Shown here: piece after piece, positions 17,896 through 46,960 of the stretch
Layout: each line of letters opens with the position of its first letter
How positions within the stretch are numbered: the first letter of the stretch is position 1
Origin: Prochlorococcus sp. AG-347-L20
GTDB lineage: Bacteria; Cyanobacteriota; Cyanobacteriia; PCC-6307; Cyanobiaceae
Reading direction: 5' to 3'
Assembly: GCA_003281225.1 (NCBI GenBank)
Contig: QCCP01000009.1
Coordinates: 1 to 64,000, forward strand
DNA length: 64,000 nucleotides
Program-made: the position numbers and the translations under genes
Notes under the pieces: model-generated
What the model was told of the DNA's origin: nothing
The model's database searches: none
The model's input: the letters and a program-made list of their open reading frames with translations, nothing else

Positions 17896-17921
17896 AAAAT
17901 AGATTAAGACCCATGTCATAG

Positions 17922-18017
17922 TCAAGAAAACAACATCACACGTGAATCACACGTGATTTTTTGACTACCTTTTTGTAAGGATTTTCAAGCACACATCACA
18001 CAAACATCACACGTGGA
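17922..18017. repeat. Phased TCACAC/TGTGA repeats behind guaA
   Basis: Four copies of TCACA lie at 17936, 17947, 17996 and 18007, in two pairs each spaced exactly 11 bases. Three of them extend to ATCACACGTG. On the minus strand they read TGTGAT, the same motif and 11-base step found around the argJ tails at 36-44 kb, here in opposite orientation. The first pair sits in the loop of an imperfect inverted repeat (TAGTCAAGAAAA at 17929-17940 against TTTTTTGACTA at 17958-17968). That structure could also stop transcription of guaA and of the convergent protease gene. Confidence 0.65.
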
Positions 18018-18065
18018 AAAAGTTACTTTACTTTTAATTCAGGAATGAAAATGATAATGGTCTAG

Positions 18066-18983
18066 TTAACAATTAAAGAAGGACGATGAGCTGTATTTAA
18101 GAATTCCATATTCTTTTGAAATTTTATTAAAGTAATTACTGAAAAGATCAAGTGGTATTCCAAGGCCTACACCTGAGCGACTGCTTGTGTTGCTGTATTC
18201 TTCTGACATACCATGTATCGCAAAAATACCACCATAAAATCCCGTAAATTCTATTGTTTTTTCAAATGTTGGAACCCCTCCACAACTTCTTTGACCAAAT
18301 ACTCCACCTCCGCTCATCCCTGGAACAGTAGAAGAAGCCTCATACACGGCTTCATAACCTTGTTGATTACCTTTAGCTCTTGTTAACATTTTTAAGCTTG
18401 ATGTTCTAAAAACAGGAATATTTAATGCTTTTGTTGGTAGAGATACTCCCCCAATTATTGGTTTTCCAAGAATTTGCCATTCATTATCGCACTCTAAATA
18501 ACCTTGATATCCGTCGTTAAATACATCAATATTTCTAATTGAACAAAAATCAAAATCTGGTTTATAAACTAATTTTTTTAAAATATAAGCAACGGGAAAT
18601 TTAGTATCACTTTCAAAAACCCCAAGAGCTAAATCATAACCTTCAAATTCCTTAGGGTAAATAAATTTTTTTAGTTTAATCTTATTTCTTTCATCAGTTA
18701 CTGAATATATCCAATATTCTTCATTTTTAATGGGTTGACTTTGTGCTATATGCCTAGTTGTTATGAATAAATACTGATTTCCTTTCCTCCCAATTATTAC
18801 TCCAGAACCAGAAGATCCTGGAGTATCAATTCCTATAGAAACTGCTCTACTATATTTTTCCAGATAAGCTTTTTTATCTAATCCTTTAGGATGTTTTGGC
18901 CATGATTTGTATGCGAGGACAGGTGAGACATAACTTACTAAAAAGAAAAAAAGAATAATTTGTAATTTTAGGAATTTATGCAT
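18066..18983 (-). CDS. Secreted trypsin-like serine protease
   Basis: A 305-residue protein with a signal peptide (about 1-24, ending VLA) and a chymotrypsin/HtrA-like domain. A catalytic triad can be proposed: His78 in ITTRHIAQ, Asp117 in YDLALG, and Ser224 in PGMSGGGVFG with a preceding oxyanion Gly. The segment GSSGSGVIIGRKGNQYLFITTRH is typical. It has no PDZ domain, unlike Deg proteases. It is expected in the periplasm or outside the cell. It sits in an accessory patch with the guaA repeats on one side and a nuclease-like gene on the other, so transfer is possible. Confidence 0.85.
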   Translation of the reverse strand: MHKFLKLQIILFFFLVSYVSPVLAYKSWPKHPKGLDKKAYLEKYSRAVSIGIDTPGSSGSGVIIGRKGNQYLFITTRHIAQSQPIKNEEYWIYSVTDERNKIKLKKFIYPKEFEGYDLALGVFESDTKFPVAYILKKLVYKPDFDFCSIRNIDVFNDGYQGYLECDNEWQILGKPIIGGVSLPTKALNIPVFRTSSLKMLTRAKGNQQGYEAVYEASSTVPGMSGGGVFGQRSCGGVPTFEKTIEFTGFYGGIFAIHGMSEEYSNTSSRSGVGLGIPLDLFSNYFNKISKEYGILKYSSSSFFNC

Positions 18984-19047
18984 CTAGAATTAGAACGAAT
19001 TAGTTTTAATTAATTAAATACTAATAATTTATGAGATTTAAAATGTA

Positions 19048-35321: not shown

Positions 35322-36560
35322 TTGAGCCAGTTAGATTCCAATTGGTCGTTTGTTGATGACAGTAAGGTAACACCAGAGGGGTTTCTTTTTGCTGGAATAT
35401 CTGCTGGTTTAAAAGCTTCTAGTAAAAAAGATTTAGCACTAATACTCGCTCCAGAAGGAAGTGTTTTTAGTGGGATGTTTACCCAATCAATAGTTCGCGC
35501 TTCTTGTGTGGATATTTGTGAGGAAAGGATTAAAACAACTTCAGGTTTTGTAAGAGCAATACTAATTAATTCTGGTCAAGCAAATGCATGTACAGGTAAA
35601 CTTGGCATTCAACATTTTCAAATTGCTACAGGAAAGATTGCGGAACTTTTAGGAATAAAAGAAAAAGAAGTTTTAATGTGCTCAACTGGTGTAATTGGTG
35701 TTCCAATACAAATAAATGATTTAGTAAAAAATTTACCGAATTTAGTTAGTGATTTAAAGGTTAATAATTTTCAAAATGCAGCAGAAGCAATTTTAACTAC
35801 TGATTTGACTTTGAAAAAAGTATCAATAGAGACGATTATTCGAGGTAGAAAAATAAAAATAGCAGGATTTGCAAAAGGTTCAGGAATGATTTACCCCAAC
35901 ATGGCTACAATGCTTGCTTTTTTAACCTGTGATGCGGGTATTCAAAAAGAAGAATGGGACAAAATGATTGCTATTGCGGTTAAAAAATCTTTTAATGCAA
36001 TATCAGTTGATGGAGAGACAAGCACAAATGATTCTTTTGTTGGAATAAATGCAGGGGAGAAAATTGAAAAAAGGTTTTTTCCAATTATCCAACAAGGGAT
36101 TGATATTGTATGTCAGAACTTGGCAAAAAATATTGCAAGGGATGGAGAGGGAGCAAATTGTTTATTAGAAGTTTTGGTTCAAGGAGCAAAAAATACAGAT
36201 GATGCAATTATGCTCGCGAAATCTATTTGTAATTCTGCCTTGGTAAAAACAGCGATACATGGTTGTGATCCGAATTGGGGACGAATCATTTCTGCTGCAG
36301 GTAATTCTGGAGTTAAATTTAATTTAAATGACGTTGACTTGTATATAGGAAACACACAGATTTTGGAAAACGGCAAGTTAAATAAATATGATCCACAAAA
36401 AGTCACTGACTATATTAATTCCAGAATGAAAGGTCGATATTTAGTAGATGATATTGTAAAAATTATGATTAATCTAAATTCTGGTGAATCGAAAGGCACA
36501 GCTTGGGGGTGCGATCTTTCTAAAAAATATGTTGAAATAAATAGCGAATATACAACATGA
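35322..36560 (+). CDS. argJ: Bifunctional ornithine acetyltransferase / N-acetylglutamate synthase
   Basis: A 412-residue ArgJ that recycles the acetyl group in arginine synthesis. It is made as a precursor that self-cleaves before Thr196 in NMATMLAF; the alpha-chain segment GQANACTG and the C-terminal WGCDLSKKYVEINSEYTT are typical. Start is TTG at 35322. The C-terminal ten codons recur three times downstream as in-frame remnants (38267, 42323, 44347), so the 3' end of this gene appears to be an integration site. The present 3' end must come from an incoming element, yet it encodes the normal C-terminus. Confidence 0.96.
   Translation: MSQLDSNWSFVDDSKVTPEGFLFAGISAGLKASSKKDLALILAPEGSVFSGMFTQSIVRASCVDICEERIKTTSGFVRAILINSGQANACTGKLGIQHFQIATGKIAELLGIKEKEVLMCSTGVIGVPIQINDLVKNLPNLVSDLKVNNFQNAAEAILTTDLTLKKVSIETIIRGRKIKIAGFAKGSGMIYPNMATMLAFLTCDAGIQKEEWDKMIAIAVKKSFNAISVDGETSTNDSFVGINAGEKIEKRFFPIIQQGIDIVCQNLAKNIARDGEGANCLLEVLVQGAKNTDDAIMLAKSICNSALVKTAIHGCDPNWGRIISAAGNSGVKFNLNDVDLYIGNTQILENGKLNKYDPQKVTDYINSRMKGRYLVDDIVKIMINLNSGESKGTAWGCDLSKKYVEINSEYTT
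36528..36560 (+). repeat. argJ 3'-end tail, copy a (within argJ)
   Basis: This is the last ten codons plus stop of the real argJ (YVEINSEYTT, TGA). It is the first of four 33-base direct repeats; copies a, b and d share the 12-base core AATAGCGAATAT, while copy c has AACAGTAAATAT. It marks the left boundary of the module array. Confidence 0.85.
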
Positions 36561-36676
36561 TTATTTAGTTTTCAAGAACCATTGTTATCATTGTATTTTT
36601 GGGACTATTTCTTTATATTTATTTTCTAGTGCGACCGAAGTGCGATTTAAAAGTGCGATCTAAAACTCACAAAATT
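36561..36676 (+). repeat. Module left-end repeat, copy 1
   Basis: Directly behind argJ is a segment closely similar to 38300-38418: both open TTATTT(A/G)TTTTTCAAG-like. Both contain CTATTTCTTTATATTTA, then three AGTG(C/T)GA iterons at 36628, 36639 and 36652. The spacings of 11 and 13 bases are the same in the second copy. The segment is non-coding and probably holds protein-binding sites belonging to the element end. Confidence 0.7.
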
Positions 36677-36723
36677 TCCAATTTCTTTTTATTCCTAACA
36701 TTTATTTTTTCAAAATTGGTTTA

Positions 36724-36757
36724 GTAAAAAGACCTGTGCAAGATCTTGCATAGGTTT
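36724..36757 (-). terminator. Rho-independent terminator of the 68-aa gene
   Basis: A near-perfect 24-base palindrome (36732-36755, half-site ACCTATGCAAGA with one change) lies just behind the stop of the leftward gene. On the minus strand it is followed by CTTTTT. A closely related hairpin ends the paralogous gene at 39714. Confidence 0.8.
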
Positions 36758-36758
36758 C

Positions 36759-36965
36759 TTAAATCATATTATGTTTAATCATTTGTTTTTTTGAATATTC
36801 TGCACATTTTTGATGTAATTCATCAGTAAATTTTCCTCTATTCATATGTAAATACTCTTCATAGAAAAAGACATTCTTACCATCAGGATCAAAATATTCA
36901 CCGCCACAAGCAAATACATCAGGAGTAAATATAAACATCAGTATGATGAGTGACAATTTATCCAT
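36759..36965 (-). CDS. Small exported protein, paralogue of the gene at 39714
   Basis: A 68-residue protein with a short signal peptide (about 1-19, ending VFAC). The remaining mature part is about 49 residues (YFDPDGKNVFFYEEYLHMNRGKF, then HQKCAEYSKKQMIKH). Cysteines at the signal cleavage region and in HQKC could pair, or the first could be lipidated. No known family. The mature part is strongly similar to the 66-residue protein at 39714-39914 in the next module, including the downstream terminator. The overlapping 77-residue gene precedes it by an 8-base overlap. Confidence 0.7.
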   Translation of the reverse strand: MDKLSLIILMFIFTPDVFACGGEYFDPDGKNVFFYEEYLHMNRGKFTDELHQKCAEYSKKQMIKHNMI

Positions 36966-37191
36966 ATTGCTCTTTTAATTCATTGAATTGGCTTTTATTT
37001 TTGCAGACTAAACCTTTGTAATCCGAGACTCCAAGATTTTTTAAAAAAGTTCCAATACCCATATATGCCATTCCACTTTCAATGAGGAAAACAACTTCTT
37101 TTTTTTCGTGAATAATCACATGAGGAGGTCCACCTCCATTGCTACTCTTTATTCTGTTAGTTCTATTTTTAACCATCGATTTAAGCCTCAA
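36958..37191 (-). CDS. Hypothetical protein (77 aa or 72 aa)
   Basis: The frame runs from an ATG at 37191, or from one at 37176 giving MVKNRTNRIK. It is a basic N-terminus followed by GGGPPHVIIHEKKEVVFLIESGMAYMGIG, which looks like a small folded alpha/beta protein, and a Lys-rich end. I recognise no family. Its 3' end overlaps the start of the 68-residue exported protein by 8 bases, so the two are probably translated from one message. Confidence 0.55.
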   Translation of the reverse strand: MRLKSMVKNRTNRIKSSNGGGPPHVIIHEKKEVVFLIESGMAYMGIGTFLKNLGVSDYKGLVCKNKSQFNELKEQYG

Positions 37192-37306
37192 AAACTTTAT
37201 TATTACACTTATTAAGTTTACTGTTTGATGAATTTTCCATATGATTTGAAAATTATTAATTCTGTAAAATATTCAATTTAAAGGTAACTAATATTTAACT
37301 TTATAT

Positions 37307-37849
37307 TCAAGACAGATCAACAACTTTTCCAACTTTTACTAAATACTTTTCACTAGAAGAACCAGTATTATCTTCTGGCTCAAGTTCTTCTCCTTTATAT
37401 GTAATTATTCCATTTTCATATTTCAATTGACTTTCATCAAACGAATCTAATTCTTGAGTAGGAAAAGAAGCTGAAGCTTTCAGAACATCGTAAAAAATTA
37501 TGCAAATTTTTTCTTCTTTGTATTGTTCTAAAAGAATGTTCAAAATATTATCTTTTTCAGGATCATTAAATTCCCAATCTTTTTCTTCATCCCCAATAAT
37601 TAATTTTCCTTTTGAATCCCATATAAATGGATCGTAATCAAAGTTGTAGATGTTTTCTTCAAAAACTTCATCTAAATCATCTTCATCTTCTATCTCATTC
37701 AATTCTTCAAGAAGTTTTTTGTCGCTAGAAAGATCTTCATCCCAAATTTTAATAACTCTTGGTTCTACAGCAGTACCAATCCATTTTATGGTTATTCCTT
37801 GATCAGACATTTTTTTACTGTTTAAGAAATAATAACTATTTAATGCCAA
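37307..37849 (-). CDS. Acidic hypothetical protein
   Basis: A protein of 180 residues from the ATG at 37849, or 167 from the more likely MSDQGITIKWIG at 37810. It is very acidic, with runs such as NEIEDEDDLDEVFEENIY, and contains several aromatic-flanked beta-like segments. No membrane segment, signal peptide or recognisable motif is visible. It is carried in the first module behind argJ. Confidence 0.65.
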   Translation of the reverse strand: MALNSYYFLNSKKMSDQGITIKWIGTAVEPRVIKIWDEDLSSDKKLLEELNEIEDEDDLDEVFEENIYNFDYDPFIWDSKGKLIIGDEEKDWEFNDPEKDNILNILLEQYKEEKICIIFYDVLKASASFPTQELDSFDESQLKYENGIITYKGEELEPEDNTGSSSEKYLVKVGKVVDLS

Positions 37850-37902
37850 AAAAATTAATTTTTAATAATATTTAAAAAAACTCTTATAAATTTGTATTTG
37901 TC

Positions 37903-38019
37903 ATGCCTTTTAAATCAGTCAAAGGAAGCGATAGAAAAGATAAACGTACTAAATCTGGATCAGAGAGAACAGCTAAACTGAAGGCTGCTGATAATAGAAA
38001 AAAGGGAAAGAAAAGATAA
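37903..38019 (+). CDS. Very small basic protein (38 aa)
   Basis: ATG at 37903 opens a 38-codon frame, MPFKSVKGSDRKDKRTK and onward, ending RKKGKKR. About 40 percent of residues are Lys or Arg and there are no hydrophobic segments, so it would be a disordered, possibly nucleic-acid-binding peptide. It is the only rightward frame in the first module and ends 37 bases before the 205-bp repeat block. Codon periodicity and the clean stop make a real gene plausible. Confidence 0.45.
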   Translation: MPFKSVKGSDRKDKRTKSGSERTAKLKAADNRKKGKKR

Positions 38020-38055
38020 GTTTTCGCTAAAAAAATCCAAACTAATTTAAAGTTT

Positions 38056-38260
38056 GATGATTATTCAACACTTAGTGGAGTGAGATCACTTTGTGACTGA
38101 AGTGCTGATGCACAACTAAATGTTATTGACATCACTAACATGTCAAAGTTCAGATCCTAAAAGTGTGATCCAAATGTGATGAGTGTGATCCTAGTGTGAT
38201 TTGTAGAGGTAATATTGGAGTCAGTTATATCAGTAGATCAGAGATAGGTGCATAATCAAA
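38056..38260 (+). repeat. 205-bp direct repeat, copy A (module right end)
   Basis: This non-coding block is about 90 percent identical and equal in length to 42112-42316. It contains four (A/G)TGTGAT iterons starting at 38162, 38173, 38182 and 38193 (steps 11, 9, 11) and the segment ATTGACATCACTAACATGTC. It ends six bases before argJ tail copy b. It therefore belongs to the element end next to the attachment core. Confidence 0.85.
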
Positions 38261-38266
38261 ACACAA

Positions 38267-38299
38267 ATAGTGTGTATCAATAGCGAATATATTACATGA
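38267..38299 (+). repeat. argJ 3'-end remnant, copy b
   Basis: In frame this reads IVCINSEYIT followed by TGA, matching ArgJ YVEINSEYTT-stop. The 12-base core AATAGCGAATAT is identical to the real argJ end. No upstream coding sequence is attached, so it is an isolated tail. It closes the first module. Confidence 0.85.
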
Positions 38300-38418
38300 T
38301 TATTTGTTTTTCAAGATTAATTGATATCACTGATTTTTTAAATCTATTTCTTTATATTTAATGTATTAGTGCGACTGAAGTGTGATCTAATAGTGCGATC
38401 TGCAATTTAAAAAATTTC
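38300..38418 (+). repeat. Module left-end repeat, copy 2
   Basis: Related to 36561-36676, with iterons AGTGCGAC at 38368, AGTGTGAT at 38379 and AGTGCGAT at 38392, again stepping 11 and 13 bases. It lies just behind argJ remnant b in the same position as copy 1 behind argJ itself. The stretch 38020-38461 holds no gene. Confidence 0.7.
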
Positions 38419-38461
38419 TAAATTATTTAATTCATTCTTTTTTTCTCAAGTATTAACAATA

Positions 38462-39493
38462 TCAACATTTAAATTTTCTGAAATTATCTCGAGCTTGCTC
38501 ATCACCAAGTTTTTTTGAAACTTTCCAATCACTGCACGCTTTCTTCCACTTATTATTCATCCAACTATATACATCACCTCTAGATCTATAAACATCAGCA
38601 GGGCTAATCAAATCAAGATCCCTATCTAATTCCAACTTTTCAACTTCTTCTTGTGGAGGAGCCATAGAAATTGCTTTCGAATAATGCGCTAATGCCTCTT
38701 CTAAATATTGTTTGGATTTTGATATTTCTTTTATATCTTTATATAAAAAATATAACTCAAATTTAGTATCACCGAGAAGAGCTGCCGTTGTATAGGTTGC
38801 ATCAAGAGTATAAGAACTCTCAGCTAATGGATTCTTGTAAGTATCAAGATTTATATTGGCTAATGTTTTTTCAAAACTCTTTTTTGCCTCTTCAAAAGAT
38901 TTTAAGGATAAAGCTTTTTTACTTTTGGATTTCTTAGCTAAGTCGTAAGTATCTCCATCTAAAACAACGAAGCCATTATCAAATTGAATATCACCTGCTA
39001 TAAAATTAACATAAGGATCTTCAGGAGAAAGATTCATTGCTTTTTCAAGGTATTTAAGTGTTTTTGAAAGACTGCCTTCTAAGTCCCAATAAAAAATATC
39101 TGCTTTAAGTGCATGAGCAAAAGCATATCCATCATCAATAACTAGAGCCACATCAATATCCTCAATAGCATCTTCATATTTATCTAATCCATAAGCATTT
39201 ATTAATGCTTTTAATATCCAACCATCTTTGGAGTTTGGGTTTTTGTTAAGAAAAGACTTTATTAACTTATTTGCTTTTAATGAATCTCCCTCTTTAAAAA
39301 AAACTAAAGCATCATCAAACTCAGAGTTATTACGTGATTTTTCTTTTTTTATTACAGACATGCTTTTTATACAGCCTTGAAAGTCAGATGCTTTTATGCA
39401 CATTTCAGCAACTTTTGGATCAATATTTGCCTGAATTGCTGAAGGTAAGGCAATAAAAGATAGTAGTGGGATAATTAATCTTTTCATTTGCAA
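38462..39493 (-). CDS. Exported tetratricopeptide-repeat protein
   Basis: A 343-residue protein with a signal peptide (about 1-22, ending IQA). TPR-like helical repeats follow (for example FFKEGDSLKANKLIKSFLNKNPNSKDGW, YEDAIEDIDVALVIDDGYAFAHALKADI and TLKYLEKAMNLSPEDPYVNFIAGDI). A C-terminal segment CSDWKVSKKLGDEQARDNF is typical of TPR proteins. Two Cys near the mature N-terminus (MCIKASDFQGCIKSM) may form a disulfide. It probably scaffolds protein contacts in the periplasm. It is the first gene (3'-most) of module 2. Confidence 0.8.
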   Translation of the reverse strand: MQMKRLIIPLLSFIALPSAIQANIDPKVAEMCIKASDFQGCIKSMSVIKKEKSRNNSEFDDALVFFKEGDSLKANKLIKSFLNKNPNSKDGWILKALINAYGLDKYEDAIEDIDVALVIDDGYAFAHALKADIFYWDLEGSLSKTLKYLEKAMNLSPEDPYVNFIAGDIQFDNGFVVLDGDTYDLAKKSKSKKALSLKSFEEAKKSFEKTLANINLDTYKNPLAESSYTLDATYTTAALLGDTKFELYFLYKDIKEISKSKQYLEEALAHYSKAISMAPPQEEVEKLELDRDLDLISPADVYRSRGDVYSWMNNKWKKACSDWKVSKKLGDEQARDNFRKFKC

Positions 39494-39680
39494 ATTTTTT
39501 CTAAATTATAGAGTGACTTTTATGTGGCTATTAGGAGATTTAAGAAAACAATATATCTAATATATCTCCAGATCAGTATCTAGATTATGAAAAGTTTTTC
39601 AAAAAAATATCTAAAACTCACAAAATTTCTAATATTGATTTCATTTATGCCATTTATTTTTCTATTAATAATTTTCTACT

Positions 39681-39712
39681 AAAAAGACCTATGCAAGATC
39701 TTGCATAGGTTG
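39681..39712 (-). terminator. Rho-independent terminator of the 66-aa gene
   Basis: A perfect 24-base palindrome (39687-39710, half-site ACCTATGCAAGA) is followed on the minus strand by CTTTTT. It starts 3 bases behind the stop of the leftward gene. It matches the terminator at 36724-36757. Confidence 0.85.
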
Positions 39713-39713
39713 T

Positions 39714-39914
39714 TCAAATCATTTTATGTTTAATCATTTGTTGATTGGAATATTTTGTGCATTTTTGATGTAATTCATCAGTAAACTTTCCTCTATTCAT
39801 ATGCAAACACTCTTCGTAAAAGAAGATATTTTTACCATCAGGATCAATATAATTGTCGGTGCACGCAAATAAGCTGGGGTTTGATATTAATATTAACGCA
39901 GCAATTATTTTCAT
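39714..39914 (-). CDS. Small exported protein, paralogue of the gene at 36759
   Basis: A 66-residue protein with signal peptide (about 1-17, ending LFAC). Its mature domain is nearly the same as in the 68-residue protein: YIDPDGKNIFFYEECLHMNRGKF, then HQKCTKYSNQQMIKHKMI. The signal peptides differ more than the mature parts. It has an extra Cys (EECLH) where the paralogue has Tyr. Upstream on the strand, 23 bases away, is the 684-residue membrane protein, so both may be in one message. Confidence 0.7.
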   Translation of the reverse strand: MKIIAALILISNPSLFACTDNYIDPDGKNIFFYEECLHMNRGKFTDELHQKCTKYSNQQMIKHKMI

Positions 39915-39937
39915 TTCATAAATTAGAAATTGCTAAT

Positions 39938-41992
39938 TTAATTACTCATATTTTTGCATAATTCTGATTCTTGAATATCTATTGGGTCTTTTCTTTCTGC
40001 ATTTATAATAGTAAGTGCTTTGTTAAAGTCAGAGCAAGCACCTTTAGTATTGCCAAGATTATATTTTATAGACCCTCTTAAGTTAAATAAAGTTGCATTG
40101 TTTCGATCTAGTTCAATTGCTTTATTAATTTCTTTCAGCGCTGATTCGTATTCTTTAGACTTAAATTTTTTCATACCTTGATTGAAATATTCATTAAATA
40201 AATCCTTCTTTGCTTGATTGGATTTAGGGGATTTCTGAATAACGGGATCAACTTTTATTTTGGCTGGTTTTTTCTGAATAACGGGATCAACTTTTATTTT
40301 GGCTGGTTTAGGGGTCAAATTAGATTCACCAATTGTATAACCAATCCCTCCAGATAAAATACTTACTAAAATTGTTATTAAAGTTTTTCTATATTTAGGG
40401 TTTGATAAAATTTCTTTTAGTTTGATCTCATCTTTTTTGATATTTTTAGGATTAAGATTTTCAATTAACTTTATTGTTAATAATTTTTCCAATAAGATAA
40501 CAGCTGATACACCTAAGAAAAGCATCATTATCCAATGAGAATAACTATTAAATATTTCTTTAAATTTAAAAATTCTAAAAATTGAATCTAATGTGGGTAA
40601 TAAAACTGCAAATCTTAAAATTAACTTTTTTGGATTGTAACTATTATTGAATATCTTAATTTTTTTAAATTCAAATTCTTGAACCTTTACTTCTTTATCA
40701 TTTGTCTTTAATTTTGCTTTTCCTAGAAGAATATTTTTTATAGAGCTAGCATCTAATGCATTGAGTTTCTTCTCAAGAACTGATTCTGATGCTTTAACAA
40801 CTATTGATCTTTCTTTTATGACAGAGATTATCCAGTAAAGTATTAATATACTTGCTCCAAATAAATAAGTTTGATTATTAGAGAAATCTGTTTTATTAAT
40901 AAAATCTGGAATTCTTGTTGCAATAAAAGTATTACTGAGCAACTGTAAAATAAAATTTAATAAATTTGCAGCAAAAAATACTAGAAACGGTTTTACATAA
41001 TTTAATCGGAACAGTTTATATGTTTTCTTTAAATTTTTTGGTTCTATAAGAATTTCTTTTTCTGAAGATCTTAAATTTGTAGCAATTACAAATAACTGAT
41101 TATCTGCAATTTGAAAGGTCTGGATAATATAAGGGTCTATTAAAGTGTCTTTAACTTTGTAATCATATTTTGTATTGTAAACTCGATAATTCCTGTTTCT
41201 ATCGCCTATTGCTGAAGTATTTTTTGCCTTGTCAAGCATGATACTAGGTAAATCTTCCTTATCTTTTAAACGATTAATTACTTGTTGATGGTCACTGTTA
41301 ATAACACCAATTCGAAGATTGGTATCTTCTCCATCCGTTAATATTTTTCTTATTTTATTGAAGTATTCTGATAGATCGGATGTGGTATTAAAGTTTTTAC
41401 TTGACTTAATAATTTGTCTTATCTTACCAACCTTATTAATTCCTAAATTTTTCCCTATTTTTTTAATGTCATGTTCTTTTAGCCTATATGATTTCAATGT
41501 TTTTTCTAAATTTGCAGATAAATAAGCAAAATCTATTTCACCTGAACCTGATCTAGTAACTGTTCTCATATTAACTTCTATTGTTCTTGTTCTAGTTACA
41601 AGCTCTCTTTTCATGCCGATCCCACTCTCTAAATCTTGTTTATTTACCCATTCTTGATATGTTTCTTGCTGTGTATCTACTGCTTCATAATCAAAATCAA
41701 AGGAATATTCGCATAAGACTTTTGAGTAGGGTATGTGAATAACGGCAGTTTCTATTATTTCGAGGTTGGCTAAATTGCTTGTTGATTTTGTTTTTAAAAT
41801 TTGAAATAAGAAATCTTTAATAGTATTTGCCGTTAGACTTCGTACTGATTTAATTTCTTTTTCTGAAAGTACTTTGACTTTCTTATTCAAGTAGCTACTT
41901 TCGCTATCAATTTTATGTTCTTTGCAAACTGAACATTCATTCCCTTCGTTAAATGTGTTTATTGATCCACAAGCTTCACATATATATTGCAT
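39938..41992 (-). CDS. Zinc-ribbon, multi-membrane, TPR-tailed protein of unknown function
   Basis: A 684-residue protein. An N-terminal zinc ribbon (YICEACGSINTFNEGNECSVC, residues 3-23) leads to a soluble domain to about 320. Hydrophobic segments follow near 330-350, 375-393, 452-465, 478-500 and 532-552. A Lys/Pro linker contains a 14-residue direct repeat (KPAKIKVDPVIQK, twice). A C-terminal TPR-type region (about 595-680, EYFNQGMKKFKSKEYESALKEI, then LFNLRGSIKYNLGNTKGACSDF) ends it. I recognise no named family. The largest gene of module 2; function unknown. Confidence 0.75.
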   Translation of the reverse strand: MQYICEACGSINTFNEGNECSVCKEHKIDSESSYLNKKVKVLSEKEIKSVRSLTANTIKDFLFQILKTKSTSNLANLEIIETAVIHIPYSKVLCEYSFDFDYEAVDTQQETYQEWVNKQDLESGIGMKRELVTRTRTIEVNMRTVTRSGSGEIDFAYLSANLEKTLKSYRLKEHDIKKIGKNLGINKVGKIRQIIKSSKNFNTTSDLSEYFNKIRKILTDGEDTNLRIGVINSDHQQVINRLKDKEDLPSIMLDKAKNTSAIGDRNRNYRVYNTKYDYKVKDTLIDPYIIQTFQIADNQLFVIATNLRSSEKEILIEPKNLKKTYKLFRLNYVKPFLVFFAANLLNFILQLLSNTFIATRIPDFINKTDFSNNQTYLFGASILILYWIISVIKERSIVVKASESVLEKKLNALDASSIKNILLGKAKLKTNDKEVKVQEFEFKKIKIFNNSYNPKKLILRFAVLLPTLDSIFRIFKFKEIFNSYSHWIMMLFLGVSAVILLEKLLTIKLIENLNPKNIKKDEIKLKEILSNPKYRKTLITILVSILSGGIGYTIGESNLTPKPAKIKVDPVIQKKPAKIKVDPVIQKSPKSNQAKKDLFNEYFNQGMKKFKSKEYESALKEINKAIELDRNNATLFNLRGSIKYNLGNTKGACSDFNKALTIINAERKDPIDIQESELCKNMSN

Positions 41993-42111
41993 AATCTTTT
42001 TTATTATTATTAATAATAAAGTTATCTCAAATTATTCTCATTTTCTTAACATTGTTTAAAATCCTCTATGCATATTCAGTTGACTAATTAATACAAAGAA
42101 ATGTAATTTTG

Positions 42112-42316
42112 GATGATTATTCAACAATTAGTGTGATGTGATGACTTTGTGACTGAAGTCCTGATGCACAACAAAATGTTATTGACATCACTAACATGTC
42201 AAAGTTCAGATCCTAAAAGTGTGATCCAAATGTGATGAGTGTGATTCAAGTGTGATTTGTAGAGGTAATATTAGAGTCAGTTATATCAATAGATTAGAGA
42301 TAGGTGCATAATCAAA
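42112..42316 (+). repeat. 205-bp direct repeat, copy B (module right end)
   Basis: Equal in length to 38056-38260 and about 90 percent identical. The four TGTGAT iterons start at 42218, 42229, 42238 and 42249 with the same 11, 9, 11 steps. As in copy A, it ends six bases before an argJ tail remnant. The surrounding stretch 41993-42458 holds no gene. Confidence 0.85.
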
Positions 42317-42322
42317 TATTAA

Positions 42323-42355
42323 TATGTGTGCATCAACAGTAAATATACGACGTAG
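42323..42355 (+). repeat. argJ 3'-end remnant, copy c
   Basis: In frame this reads YVCINSKYTT followed by TAG. It keeps nine of ten ArgJ tail positions by type but uses different codons (AAC AGT AAA TAT ACG ACG), so it was not copied recently from the resident argJ. It closes module 2 and is followed by TGCGA/TGTGA iterons at 42420, 42426 and 42437. Confidence 0.8.
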
Positions 42356-42458
42356 TTTTTGTGATTTCTGGGATCGGTTGATATGACAATAAAAAATCTC
42401 TAAAAGAATACACACCTTTTGCGACTGTGATAATTCTGTGATTATTATTTCTTCTTAA

Positions 42459-44033
42459 TTAAGGTAGTTTTATAGTTGCTAAATCTTTTGATTTAGTTTC
42501 AATAAGTGCTAGTTTTTCGAGTCTTTCTAGTCTTGCCAAAAGTGATTTATTTTGAGCAATGATTGATTGATTTTTATTTTTTAAGTCTTCGTTTTGCGAA
42601 ATAATTTTTTCGTTTTTTTCTTCAAGTGAGAAAATTTTATCTTCCATTTTTTCCTTTTCATGCATGCTTATTAAAGTGGGTTTATTTAATTCACCCAGTT
42701 TAAAGACAAATCCTGCTTTGATAACCCCACTATCTAAAGTTCCTTCTCCATAAGATTTAGAGCCACCAAAAACATATGATCCTCCAGCATTTATATCAAC
42801 TCTTTCATTAATTTTTGAGGCACAACCAAAACCTAAAGCATACCTACTGCTATAAGCACCTGTGCCAACGCCACAACTTAGTTTAGATTCTTTTGATGTT
42901 TGAGGAAGTGCAGTTAATGCTGCTGTTAAAGCAGTTGATCCAGCAACCCCTTCACCTAGTTTTTTGATATTTGTTTTATTAGTAGAAATATTATTTTTAT
43001 TGGTTGTAATATTATTTTTATTGGTTGTAATTTGAGCATTATTACCTGCTTTTACTTCTACTCCATCAATTAATAATTTACTGCCATTGGTGACATTGAT
43101 ATCGATCGCATTACCATTTTCATCTTTAGCATAAAGTTTTTGTACCCCATCTTCTTCTTTTGTAATTAGTGAATTTTTACCAATGTGAATCTCACCAGAT
43201 TCTTTTTTTGTAATTAGTGAAACCCCATCAACGGTTAAACCCTCTGCTGTTATGTCAATATCATTTCCATCAGCACCAATTTGAATAGAACCATCTGAAT
43301 TTTTTGTAATAACAGCAGCACCATCAATATTCAAACCATCAGAAACAATATCTATATCATCTGTATCCCCTCCAATTTGAACAGAACCATCTGAATTTTT
43401 TGTAATAACAGCAGCACCATCAATATTCAAACCATCAGAAACAATATCTATATCATCTGTATCCCCACCAATTTGAACAGAACCATCTGAATTTTTTGTA
43501 ATAACAGCAGCACCATCAATATTCAAACCATCAGAAACAACATCTATATCATCTGTATCCCCACCAATTTGAACAGAACCATCTGAATTTTTTGTAATAA
43601 CAGCAGCACCATCAATATTCAAACCATCAGAAACAACATCTATATCATCTGTATCCCCACCAATTTGAATAGTTCCATCGTTATTTTTTTTAATTGCGGT
43701 ATTTCCTGCCCAAGGCATTACTGTTTGAATTAAACTTCCAGAAGGCTTATCTACTAGTTCTACTGAATTAGATTCAATATCATAAATAGCCCATCCTGAA
43801 CCCCCGCCAAGGTATAGTTTTCCTTCATATTCATCAACAAAAGTGCATCCAGCACATGTTCCATAAGGACTCGTGAAACTTGTTAAGTCAGTTGCAGAGC
43901 CCGTAGAGGTGTTATATCTTTGAACTGTGTAATTTGTCCCATCAAATGTCACATTTAATATATCTGCAAAGGCAGCCTTAATAGGCAAAAATCCTAAAAA
44001 ACTTATTGCTGAATAAGCGAGTAATTTTTTCAT
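42459..44033 (-). CDS. YadA-like surface protein with tandem 32-aa repeats and coiled-coil tail
   Basis: A 524-residue protein with signal peptide (about 1-23). An N-terminal domain with YTVQRYNTSTGSATDL and paired Cys (CAGCTF) precedes five near-identical 32-residue repeats (unit contains QIGGDTDDID and SDGLNIDGAAVITKNSDG) between about 115 and 270. Heptad-like TTNKNNI repeats follow (about 336-355), then a YadA-type anchor-like region (GVAGSTALTAALTALPQ, then CGVGTGAYSSRYALGFG and VIKAGFVF). A coiled coil of about 60 residues follows the anchor region; in known trimeric autotransporters the barrel is C-terminal. Sole gene of module 3. Confidence 0.75.
   Translation of the reverse strand: MKKLLAYSAISFLGFLPIKAAFADILNVTFDGTNYTVQRYNTSTGSATDLTSFTSPYGTCAGCTFVDEYEGKLYLGGGSGWAIYDIESNSVELVDKPSGSLIQTVMPWAGNTAIKKNNDGTIQIGGDTDDIDVVSDGLNIDGAAVITKNSDGSVQIGGDTDDIDVVSDGLNIDGAAVITKNSDGSVQIGGDTDDIDIVSDGLNIDGAAVITKNSDGSVQIGGDTDDIDIVSDGLNIDGAAVITKNSDGSIQIGADGNDIDITAEGLTVDGVSLITKKESGEIHIGKNSLITKEEDGVQKLYAKDENGNAIDINVTNGSKLLIDGVEVKAGNNAQITTNKNNITTNKNNISTNKTNIKKLGEGVAGSTALTAALTALPQTSKESKLSCGVGTGAYSSRYALGFGCASKINERVDINAGGSYVFGGSKSYGEGTLDSGVIKAGFVFKLGELNKPTLISMHEKEKMEDKIFSLEEKNEKIISQNEDLKNKNQSIIAQNKSLLARLERLEKLALIETKSKDLATIKLP
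43260..43690 (-). repeat. 96-bp tandem repeats inside the surface-protein gene
   Basis: A 96-base unit recurs with near-identity. The marker AACAGCAGCA (plus strand) occurs at 43311, 43407, 43503 and 43599, exactly 96 apart; a diverged unit lies at each end. Each unit encodes 32 residues. The low divergence implies recent duplication or gene conversion, and unit number could vary by slippage or recombination. Confidence 0.9.
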
Positions 44034-44154
44034 TCGAATAATGGAGTTATTTGCTATTTTCCTAGAAATCTAAAAAAATGCCATATTTTATTTTTTTACT
44101 AAAGAAGAAGCAGGAAATTCCCATCCCCCCTCTTAATTCTGAATATCCACCTCT

Positions 44155-44285
44155 GGGATAAATGTGATTATTCTGTGATTACGCATAAGATCACAGAAAT
44201 TTATCTTAATTATCTCAAGGGTTTTTATTAAAAAATTTAAAACTGTGATTATTATTTTGCTGAATGTGATTATGGTGTGATTATT
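44155..44285 (+). repeat. TGTGA iterons at the right end of module 3
   Basis: TGTGATTA-type repeats start at 44163 and 44174 (11 apart), 44244, 44265 and 44276 (21 and 11 apart). This end is not homologous to the 205-bp block in overall sequence but carries the same motif with the same helical step before the argJ tail. The spacer 44034-44371 shows no gene. Confidence 0.65.
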
Positions 44286-44346
44286 TTCTAAAAATTTGCT
44301 CTAGTGATAGTAATGGATTACAGCAAGGTGTATATACTATTTGCCC

Positions 44347-44379
44347 TAGGTGGAAATTAATAGCGAATATACTACTTAA
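44347..44379 (+). repeat. argJ 3'-end remnant, copy d (probable ancestral end)
   Basis: After a TAG in the first codon position this reads VEINSEYTT followed by TAA, identical in protein to the ArgJ terminus but with different codons and stop. It overlaps the 3' end of the convergent membrane-protein gene by 8 bases. This looks like the original argJ 3' end, left at the far side when the modules inserted. Confidence 0.85.
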
Positions 44380-44614
44380 GTTTTAGTAAATCTAATGGTA
44401 GATATTCATTCATATAAAGAAAAAGTATTGTTAAAGTTCCAATTACAGAGCCTATAAAACCTCCAAAAAAATTAACTAATAATCCAGATTGTCTAATTAT
44501 TGCTTCTTCGTTTTTTTCTTCTTCAAAATTAGGAGAATCAACTACTTTTAAGCGCTGATTGGTTGTTGGTTGTTTAAGTTGTTGGTGTCGGATGAGGGCT
44601 TCGAAATCAGGCAT
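44372..44614 (-). CDS. Small membrane protein overlapping the ParA-like gene
   Basis: I chose the ATG at 44614 (MPDFEALIRHQQLKQPT), giving 80 residues. An ATG at 44638 would give 88 and a longer overlap. A polar N-terminus is followed by one or two membrane segments (about 45-70, GLLVNFFGGFIGSVIGTLTILFLYM). The start lies inside the 3' part of the ParA-like gene in another frame (67-base overlap), so translation is probably coupled. Function unknown; position suggests a membrane partner of the ATPase. Confidence 0.65.
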   Translation of the reverse strand: MPDFEALIRHQQLKQPTTNQRLKVVDSPNFEEEKNEEAIIRQSGLLVNFFGGFIGSVIGTLTILFLYMNEYLPLDLLKLK

Positions 44615-45219
44615 GGAATTTGTGAGGCAATTGAACAATAAGCAGACCAGCCCGTCATTCGACGAGGATCTGATCTACCTAAATCGTCTACAGCTTCAAA
44701 TACAGCATTGCCCGAGGCTTCTGCTTTATCAAATGCTGAAAGTAAGGGTATAAATGTATCAAAAACATATAAACCAAAATTTTCTAGAGCTGCTTTGGCT
44801 TGTTGCGCTGCTTTTTGCTGTCTAAAATCAACTTTTACTATTACTACAGCATGGTTAACTTTTAAGTTGTTTAATAAATTAGCTAGTTCAACAGTTAATT
44901 CTACTGATCTTGCTTTTGCAGTTGTAGGTAAGATAACTAAATCTGAACCATACGCTAAGTGTTTAAGTTCTTCATGATCACTGCTAGCCTGGCCATCAGT
45001 TATTACAATTTCTGATGATCTTGATGCTTTAGCAGCTGAACTGACGGGGAAAACTGGAAATGGAAGATTGCCTCTTGATGCGTATGCTAAAGCAGATCTA
45101 TTCTTGTCGGCATCGACTATGCAAACTTTTTTACCTTTAGAATGCCAAACACTAGCAAGGTGAATACTTGTACAGGTCTTGGCCACCCCCCCTTTTTGTC
45201 CGCAAACGGTAATGAACAA
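44548..45219 (-). CDS. ParA/MinD-family ATPase
   Basis: A 223-residue ATPase with the deviant Walker A loop CGQKGGVAKTCTSIHLA at the N-terminus, the KKVCIVDADKNRSAL segment and the VITDGQASSD and DLVILPTT segments in Walker B positions. Such proteins position plasmids, chromosomes or protein complexes by ATP-dependent gradients. No parB-like gene or obvious centromere array is adjacent. Its Walker B-like region has VITDG rather than the usual aspartate-rich D-P motif. The overlapping small membrane protein is the only partner candidate seen. Confidence 0.85.
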   Translation of the reverse strand: MFITVCGQKGGVAKTCTSIHLASVWHSKGKKVCIVDADKNRSALAYASRGNLPFPVFPVSSAAKASRSSEIVITDGQASSDHEELKHLAYGSDLVILPTTAKARSVELTVELANLLNNLKVNHAVVIVKVDFRQQKAAQQAKAALENFGLYVFDTFIPLLSAFDKAEASGNAVFEAVDDLGRSDPRRMTGWSAYCSIASQIPCLISKPSSDTNNLNNQQPISA

Positions 45220-46478: not shown

Positions 46479-46630
46479 TTTGCAAGATTCGATTTTTTAA
46501 TAAGATAAATTAATTTAAAACTTATCTTCTCAGTATTTATACTTATAAAATTAAAAAAATTCTTTTTAATACAGGCATTTGAAGCAATATTTACACACTA
46601 ATAAATTATCTATTACATCTTCTTAGTTAT

Positions 46631-46660
46631 TTAAAAAAAGTGGAGTCCTTCCAGACTCCT
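46631..46660 (-). terminator. Terminator of ssrA
   Basis: On the minus strand GGAGTC, a 6-base loop and GACTCC form a hairpin (46642-46659), followed by CACTTTTTTT. It ends the tmRNA precursor. Confidence 0.75.
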
Positions 46661-46900
46661 CGTATCATTTGGTTGATAAGGCTGATATAACCCCATCTCC
46701 TTTATGATCAAGCAGCAACTGGTGCTGTTTGACGGGAGAAACTAACGATTTTGTTAGCATTTGTGTTTTTGCTCTAACCGAGCCGGCTTCAGTCACCTTC
46801 CTTATGCCCCGTCGAAACCATTACAACCCCAAATAGTGGAGTTGAGCGGAATCGAACCGCTGTCCGAAACATCGGTTGAGATCACCTAGTCCAATTGGAC
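46636..46900 (-). ncRNA. ssrA: Circularly permuted two-piece tmRNA
   Basis: On the minus strand the acceptor piece comes first: GGTTCGATTCCGC T-arm, then CAACTCC and the terminal A at 46837. A 6-base spacer (46831-46836) follows. The coding piece starts GGGGTTG at 46830, which pairs with CAACTCC, then GGTTTCGACGGGG. The tag reading frame runs from 46758 to 46711 and decodes ANKIVSFSRQTAPVAA with stop at 46710-46708. This inverted order of 3' and 5' halves is the known permuted ssrA of marine cyanobacteria. The outer ends are approximate. The RNA rescues stalled ribosomes with SmpB. Confidence 0.95.
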
Positions 46901-46960
46901 ATTTATATTCTGACAGGCAAAATGGTTATTGAATAGTTTTTTTACTAAGTTTTATCGTAT

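Follow-up and report, generated by a model that had tools for sequence, protein, structure and literature searches.

Why does the 3' end of argJ recur three times, always in the plus orientation, between argJ and its native convergent neighbor in Prochlorococcus sp. AG-347-L20? The question arose in a 64,000-bp window (the whole stretch of DNA that was analyzed, bases 1 to 64000 of contig C9 in a source genome of 1.65 Mb and 36 contigs), where a first-pass annotation had noticed the recurrent ends, measured the modules between them at 1739, 4056, and 2024 bases, and proposed argJ as the attachment site for small cassettes acquired in succession. The copies were confirmed at 38279, 42335, and 44359, besides argJ's own end at 36540, and the spacings proved to be correct. 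The reading preferred here, with a probability of roughly 0.82, is that the 3' end of argJ is the attachment site of diverse small cassettes that have no recognizable recombinase gene and would be moved in trans by lambda-type tyrosine recombination.

A scan of the window with AATAGCGAATATACNACNTNA, allowing up to 3 mismatches on both strands, returned three argJ-tail copies and no other match, with 0.13 matches expected by chance and 0 of 100 shuffles reaching three. The copy at 42335 was missed at this setting and was found only with a looser limit of 4 mismatches. The stop of the copy at 44359-44379 overlaps an open reading frame (ORF) of 88 amino acids (aa) by 8 bp; the annotation had likened this overlap to that of an intact argJ end, and the same geometry was seen in relatives with an empty site. 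The window repeats extend far past ten argJ codons: the right-end repeat joins 38034-38304 to 42090-42360 at 86% identity, and the left-end repeat joins 36537-36621 to 38276-38360 at 81%, with a continuation at 77%. Inside module 2, 39609-39633 repeats the left-end sequence at 36658-36682, and 39657-39871 repeats 36702-36916. Because of these internal copies of left-end and module 1 small-gene sequence, module 2 is probably a pair of fused cassettes with a decayed border; no recognizable tail lies between its two putative halves. The small-gene block of module 1 occurs again in the stretch at 39560-39871 of this module, together with left-end-like sequence. No tRNA was found in the argJ interval of the window, and the nearest RNA gene found was that of the transfer-messenger RNA (46617-46926).

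argJ was present in 168 of 200 genomes of the genus. Sixty stretches from 60 genomes were fetched, their native neighbors were placed by tblastn, and 57 loci, the window counted in, could be scored against the native ParA-like gene. At 25 of the 57 the site was empty, with argJ overlapping the convergent 88-aa gene by 8 bp; the other 32 were filled with inserts of 151 bp to 9.3 kb that differed in content and mostly ended in an argJ-tail copy, at times a decayed one. Two short inserts (151 and 272 bp) lacked any ORF of 50 aa. As a rate, the filled fraction is biased by the sampling, because seven genomes (G173, G183, G040, G152, G085, G089, and G138) were picked from earlier matches, the others having been taken by argJ match rank, completeness, or assembly. 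Four loci were left uncounted, namely, L053 (contig end), L096 (array continuing into guaA), L104 (contig without the ParA gene), and L105 (argJ further inside); the last three, judged by tails or distances, are filled as well. In 90.7 kb of insert, 17 interior tail copies lay on the plus strand versus 2 on the minus strand, and 1.14 Mb of control sequence, searched on both strands, gave 8 tail matches, every one at the 4-mismatch limit. Target-gene 3' ends are repeated between successive inserts, as in an additive genomic island. The proposal of successive small cassettes at argJ is supported by these loci, which include genomes in which argJ directly meets the convergent gene and others in which the same tails bound different contents; a fixed three-module content is contradicted, and the tails are conserved at module borders in relatives above chance.

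In attachment sites of the lambda type, direct repeats flank a short core that is also present in the host gene. A comparison of 32 filled and 25 empty junctions revealed that host sequence was kept at most left junctions through GAATATAC and was variable beyond it, and that most right junctions were variable up to GAATATAC and kept host sequence afterwards. A few left copies were spelled GAGTATAC or GAATACAC. At L071, L074, L075, and L088, the upstream host codons (AACTCNG) were spelled unlike the right copy of the same locus, which puts the exchange at or after the following G. Judged by these junctions, the exchange is located in or near GAATATAC, so that a cassette donates only the stop codon and the two Thr codons before it and leaves ArgJ intact. 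A short exchange region in a core common to cassette and host gene was thus found, decayed in some right copies. The suggestion that the current argJ tail came with the latest arrival is borne out by the junctions only as far as the two terminal Thr codons and the stop, which some arrival, putatively the latest, would have donated.

For the repeats on both sides of the core, 36 arrays (32 of the genus and 4 of other genera) were cut at tail copies into 60 modules with a median length of ~1630 bp, outer borders being set by geometry where the tail had decayed. A 9-mer repeated with up to one mismatch at a spacing of exactly 11 bp was present at 62 of the 120 ends, and controls scaled to 120 ends gave 0.4 for interior and 1.5 for core sequence. 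Because the ends of related cassettes are not independent, they were recounted by cluster, and the signal was weaker in this recount. Single linkage merged the 120 ends into 22 clusters, the largest of which had 59 ends and held several iteron words; the spacing of 11 occurred in 6 of the 22 representatives and in some member of 9 of the 22 clusters, and other spacings occurred in at most 3 of the 22 representatives each. A word common to both ends was found in 30 of the 47 modules with repeats at both (spacing, 10 to 13), whereas 1000 shuffles of the end pairs averaged 8.8 and never exceeded 18. Among distinct module types, 5 of 10 had a common word (shuffled mean, 1.3; 4 of 1000 shuffles reached 5). 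The iteron words included TGTGATTAT, TATGACACT, TATAACACC, TTGCTTACA, AAACCACTA, and AGTGTGATC, and because the 59-end cluster spans several of them, some cassette families may be relatives with diverged iterons. Within the window, 10-mer repeats at spacing 11 were confined to five places: three lie in the argJ array, and two follow directly on guaA. Direct repeats of the arm type thus flank the core, though they are absent from some modules.

Sequences common to different inserts, and the range of the tails, were informative about spread. Of 160 segments of at least 350 bp common to insert pairs, 33 exceeded the pair's own parA-akr flank in identity. L101 and L107 were 95.9% identical over 1115 bp of cassette and 78.6% in their flanks, and L098 was 93 to 95% identical to seven other genomes over 0.7 to 1.5 kb, with flanks at 83 to 84%. 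Cassettes that are 93 to 96% identical where flanks are 79 to 84% indicate that some cassettes have moved between lineages horizontally. The iteron-pair pattern TATRACACYAATATRACACTA matched 18 stretches in genome_contigs, 13 from Prochlorococcus (14 sites) and 5 from other organisms; an argJ tail lay in the adjoining flank of 13 of the 14 Prochlorococcus sites, and at least two of the 13 stretches (L240 and L243) appear to repeat sampled loci and are not independent. In other genera, repeated argJ tails in a local spelling, AATGCCGAYTAYAC, were present in 6 of 20 stretches, with five copies each in G283 and G250, two each in G270, G254, and G263, and in G209 a second, weaker one; each of the 14 remaining stretches had a single copy. 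A 60-aa marker gene found elsewhere was rejected as a sign of the same cassette, because its copies elsewhere share only part of that cassette and, save for one weak match, lack its iterons; some of them lie at guaA.

The 3' end of guaA is a second anchor. Among 23 guaA loci of the genus, with the source genome included, 6 were empty (44 to 75 bp), 3 had 202 to 213 bp and a second guaA-tail match, the source genome had 1152 bp, and at 13 the fetched flank did not show the native gene. In 33.6 kb downstream of guaA, there were 7 second tail matches with up to 5 mismatches, every one on the plus strand, compared with 0 upstream. The window's own guaA insert showed no guaA tail at its right end. 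In G042 (L110), the 3' ends of argJ and guaA face each other across an array, and the chromosome is apparently rearranged; because the argJ array there runs into the guaA 3' end, the two arrays seem to have recombined.

In the mechanism that would account for the argJ arrays, a cassette circle would enter the argJ site through site-specific recombination of the lambda tyrosine type, the strands being exchanged in or near GAATATAC and the iterons serving as putative arm-type sites. The trans-acting enzyme would be either that of another mobile element or the tyrosine recombinase conserved in the family, and repeated insertion at tail copies would build the tandem array. Several observations weigh against this scheme. 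A single arm-binding enzyme fits poorly with iteron words that vary from cassette to cassette; recognizable iterons are absent at one or both ends of many modules, the two ends are mismatched in some (e.g., L061, L067, and L075), and in 4 modules of <300 bp the end windows overlap, so that word sharing in them, seen in two cases (L092 and L204), is trivial. The right-hand tails are decayed at several loci (e.g., L063, L077, and L101), and in 127 of the 160 common segments the cassette is no closer than the flank. For the argJ site there are candidate recombinases only, and neither a circle nor a newly formed junction was seen, so the mobility may be past.

A six-frame search of 107.7 kb in 35 arrays (the 32 filled loci of the genus and three arrays of other genera) with a core-recombinase profile and a box-II motif found no recombinase, the best profile match having an E value of 0.77. 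No recombinase was recognized by Pfam among representatives of 38 of the 47 cargo clusters (9 small ORFs of 59 to 84 aa were omitted) or by PADLOC (10 ORFs), PHROGs (10 ORFs), and NCBIfam (6 array ORFs). None of the PF00589 matches listed in 35 genomes, and none among the matches listed for 200 genomes, lay within an argJ insert when compared by eye. The same comparison placed no PF00239 match in an argJ insert, the family matching in 24 of 25 genomes, mostly at a single gene whose open frame spans ~220 aa; this serine resolvase-type gene is present in most of the 25 genomes (e.g., at G000:C1:139847-140257). Because divergent integrases missed by PF00589 are reported in these organisms in the available part of PMC10187409, a very divergent enzyme is conceivable and may be encoded in the arrays. 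Elsewhere, G050 has two inverted copies (L111 and L112), ~200 kb apart, of a tyrosine-recombinase region, in which several ORFs are equal in length and in their first 60 residues.

As to the source of the enzyme, there is about an even chance that the cassettes are satellites, or resemble cis-mobilizable elements (CIMEs), and are moved by integrases of visiting tycheposons, cyanophages, or phage satellites. CIMEs are described in the consulted portion of PMC5704250 as elements that have lost their integration genes but retain attL and attR, and the argJ cassettes likewise have structured attachment (att) ends without an integrase gene. The several iteron words and the 151- and 272-bp inserts that lack an ORF of 50 aa are in keeping with visiting enzymes, as is the patchy occurrence of additional tyrosine recombinases among relatives. 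However, no integrase was recognized in the 32 filled loci and the three other-genus arrays, and viral_contigs gave 0 matches to the argJ-tail pattern and 0 to the right-end motif. A TATRACAC pair occurred in 4 viral stretches, none of which matched argJ, guaA, or integrase queries, and the viral search also gave pattern-only matches to a TTGCTTAC pair (11 stretches) and a TGTGATTAT pair (3 stretches).

Integrases of visiting elements were weighted above a resident enzyme, for which the candidate is a conserved tyrosine recombinase of ~389 aa that lies, in the source genome, between genes resembling hemH and cobO (by eye). That this protein is the trans enzyme, in an integron-like resident system for non-autonomous argJ and guaA cassettes, is a tentative and somewhat unlikely proposition. 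Matches to it were found in 92 of 101 genomes of the family and in 63 of 64 good ones, a few being weak and to other recombinases, and its catalytic-type residues were invariant in 27 of 27 aligned homologues. Among the matches listed, it was the sole PF00589 match in several near-complete array-bearing genomes (G172, which is closed, G128, G023, G152, and G137), and it aligned at positions 10 to 377 of 389 with an integrase of the source genome that adjoins a tRNA-Ser. Nevertheless, it is also present in genera with a single argJ tail, the differing iteron words suggest differing arm specificities, PF00589 can overlook divergent integrases (PMC10187409, part consulted), and the protein passed none of the XerA, XerD, and XerS cut-offs; its binding and its role in recombination are putative. 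A search of solved structures with the core recombinase profile gave no match. The integrase that adjoins tRNA-Ser(tga) in the source genome (G000:C2:59935-61050, L114) is tycheposon-like and has AGTCCACGC repeats alongside. A broader proposition is rather doubtful, namely, that marine picocyanobacteria have a resident, vertically inherited tyrosine recombinase that uses the 3' ends of housekeeping genes (argJ and guaA, and perhaps more) to take up cassettes lacking a recombinase of their own, as a separately evolved integron-like platform with double-strand att sites and arm repeats that would supply interchangeable surface and anti-phage genes.

Explanations other than lambda-type recombination fared worse. 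The tails might have been copied by ordinary homologous recombination or gene conversion, with the insertions as unrelated illegitimate events, and the argJ array of G042 that reaches the guaA 3' end implies that larger recombination does occur here; but the junctions are precise, the iterons are paired at a fixed spacing, and the reading frame is restored, which makes this account highly improbable, and a homologous duplication of the argJ tail is disfavored by the paired iterons and precise junctions. A true integron, with attC-type single-strand recombination by IntI, can be dismissed almost with certainty despite the tandem, mostly single-gene modules, since no integrase was recognized in the arrays and no attC-like folding was seen in ten end regions, all 10 of which folded as single-stranded DNA no better than shuffles (z, -1.0 to 1.8).

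Cassettes at argJ resemble several known systems in part. Integron arrays consist of small tandem modules, mostly with one gene each, whose sites point in one direction. The argJ arrays likewise contain tandem, mostly single-gene modules, but they have no recognized intI and no hairpin-like attC and carry arm-like repeats around a gene-tail core. Staphylococcal cassette chromosome (SCC) elements in rlmH/orfX also stand in tandem where a conserved protein gene ends, and some of them lack a recombinase; the recombinases of SCC are large serine enzymes (ccr). The argJ cassettes are set apart from them by description, their target being argJ and no serine recombinase having been placed in the argJ inserts. 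The stacking of recombinase-less elements at a gene end is a known principle, described for CIMEs in the available text of PMC5704250, where accretion with integrative and conjugative elements (ICEs) places elements that have attL and attR and no integration genes one behind another at the end of a gene, which every new arrival restores. The argJ cassettes also keep att ends, have no recognized integration genes, and are stacked at a restored gene end; attL and attR are both present, and loss of integration genes is not separable from original absence. They differ in having no recognized ICE or conjugation gene, in size (0.15 to 9 kb), in being mostly single-gene, in their several iteron words, and in being empty or filled across an ocean genus. 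Regarding a CIME origin from an ICE or an integrative and mobilizable element, no conjugation family was found among the scanned cargo clusters, and no ancestor was found.

In the additive flexible genomic island fGI-2 of Methylophilaceae, repeated tRNA-Lys tails mark the island (PMC10872708, part consulted), much as recurring target-gene 3' ends do at argJ; here, by contrast, the targets are protein genes (argJ and guaA), the ends carry 11-bp iterons, and no integrase was recognized in the arrays. Tycheposons (Hackl et al. 2023, as cited in the available parts of PMC10872708 and PMC10187409) are bordered by a tRNA, carry a tyrosine recombinase, and measure 4 to 200 kb. They are cargo elements of the same organisms, and the source genome has an integrase next to a tRNA-Ser, but the argJ arrays have no tRNA border and no recognized tyrosine recombinase inside. 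A putative attachment region for P-SS2 in a genomic island of Prochlorococcus MIT9313 has five copies of a 36-bp piece of a putative phage attachment site, with tRNA-Met fragments; it differs in its tRNA-like target and decayed transposases, and the consulted part of PMC2784084 describes no compact protein-gene cassettes there. Elsewhere, guaA is named in connection with genomic islands that target it, such as GIsul2 (PMC9376610), and with integrases, whereas the guaA inserts here resemble argJ cassettes. Literature searches found no argJ-anchored cassettes by title or start of abstract, and none for argJ with attB and integrase; a prior mention is possible. "Cryptic elements" that the available text of PMC10187409 attributes to the tycheposon paper may include argJ or guaA insertions.

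The 111 array ORFs of at least 55 aa fell into 47 clusters, and 42 of the 60 modules had exactly one ORF of at least 80 aa, only ATG-started ORFs being counted. The commonest cluster had 22 members, including the window ORF at 42462-44033, the scanned member in which a YadA-type anchor was found. A PEBP-like protein was alone in cassettes of 847 to 850 bp. Further cargo included a thiamine-binding protein, a DnaB C-terminal helicase, a cytosine methylase, a helicase-type restriction enzyme, an HNH-type endonuclease, a HupE-like protein, and a glycosyltransferase. The recognizable cargo therefore includes surface-type proteins and restriction-type genes, and much of the cargo has no recognizable identity. 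Genomes of Prochlorococcus are small and streamlined, and a very large pool of genes is shared among them. A precise, nondestructive docking site that accepts one-gene cassettes, with defined ends, empty sites, and candidate enzymes, gives a concrete route for single-gene traffic in this genus; the surface-type and restriction-type cargo would fit a role in phage encounters, and the att sites at argJ and guaA could be landing sites for engineering these cyanobacteria.

Table 1. Features of the argJ array and the guaA insert in the 64,000-bp window
Feature	Position	Strand	Remark
argJ	35349-36560	+	attB-like attachment site at 3' end; gene intact whether the site is filled or empty
Tail copy 1 (argJ's own end)	36540-36560	+	left junction of module 1
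Tail copy 2	38279-38299	+	border of modules 1 and 2
Tail copy 3, degenerate (4 mismatches)	42335-42355	+	border of modules 2 and 3
Tail copy 4	44359-44379	+	right junction; 8-bp overlap with convergent gene
Module 1, 1739 bp	36540-38278	+	
Module 2, 4056 bp	38279-42334	+	perhaps two fused cassettes
Module 3, 2024 bp	42335-44358	+	
Left-end iterons, module 1	36628-36661	+	AGTGCGA type, spacing 10 and 13
Right-end iterons, module 1	38161-38203	+	AGTGTGATC type
Left-end iterons, module 2	38368-38402	+	AGTGYGA type
Right-end iterons, module 2	42217-42259	+	
Left-end iterons, module 3	42425-42447	+	TGTGATWAT, spacing 11
Right-end iterons, module 3	44264-44286	+	TGTGATTAT, spacing 11
Cargo ORF, 68 aa	36762-36965	-	paralogue of 66-aa ORF at 39717-39914; no Pfam match
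Cargo ORF, 72 aa	36961-37176	-	relative in another genus's array (L197); no Pfam match
Cargo ORF, 167 aa	37310-37810	-	no match in Pfam, PHROGs, and NCBIfam scans
Cargo ORF, 341 aa	38465-39487	-	weak TPR matches
Cargo ORF, 684 aa	39941-41992	-	C-terminal TPR
Cargo ORF, 524 aa	42462-44033	-	YadA-type anchor; 96-bp internal repeats; commonest cluster
Native convergent gene, 88 aa	44372-44638	-	right border
Native ParA-like gene (named by eye)	44548-45219	-	defines empty site
guaA	16309-17895	+	3' end is second anchor
Interval from guaA to native 237-aa gene, 1152 bp	17896-19047		
ORF in guaA interval, 305 aa	18066-18983	-	protease-like SGGG stretch by eye; no NCBIfam match
Iterons of guaA insert	17934-18014	+	ATCACACGTGA type, spacing 11

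Two minor observations concern the cargo. The DnaB C-terminal helicase gene was cargo in divergent genomes (L100, L101, and L107) and, as a guess, might act against phage replication. In the window, the 96-bp tandem repeats of the YadA-anchored ORF lie at 43179-43694, and their copy number may, again as a guess, vary between cells.

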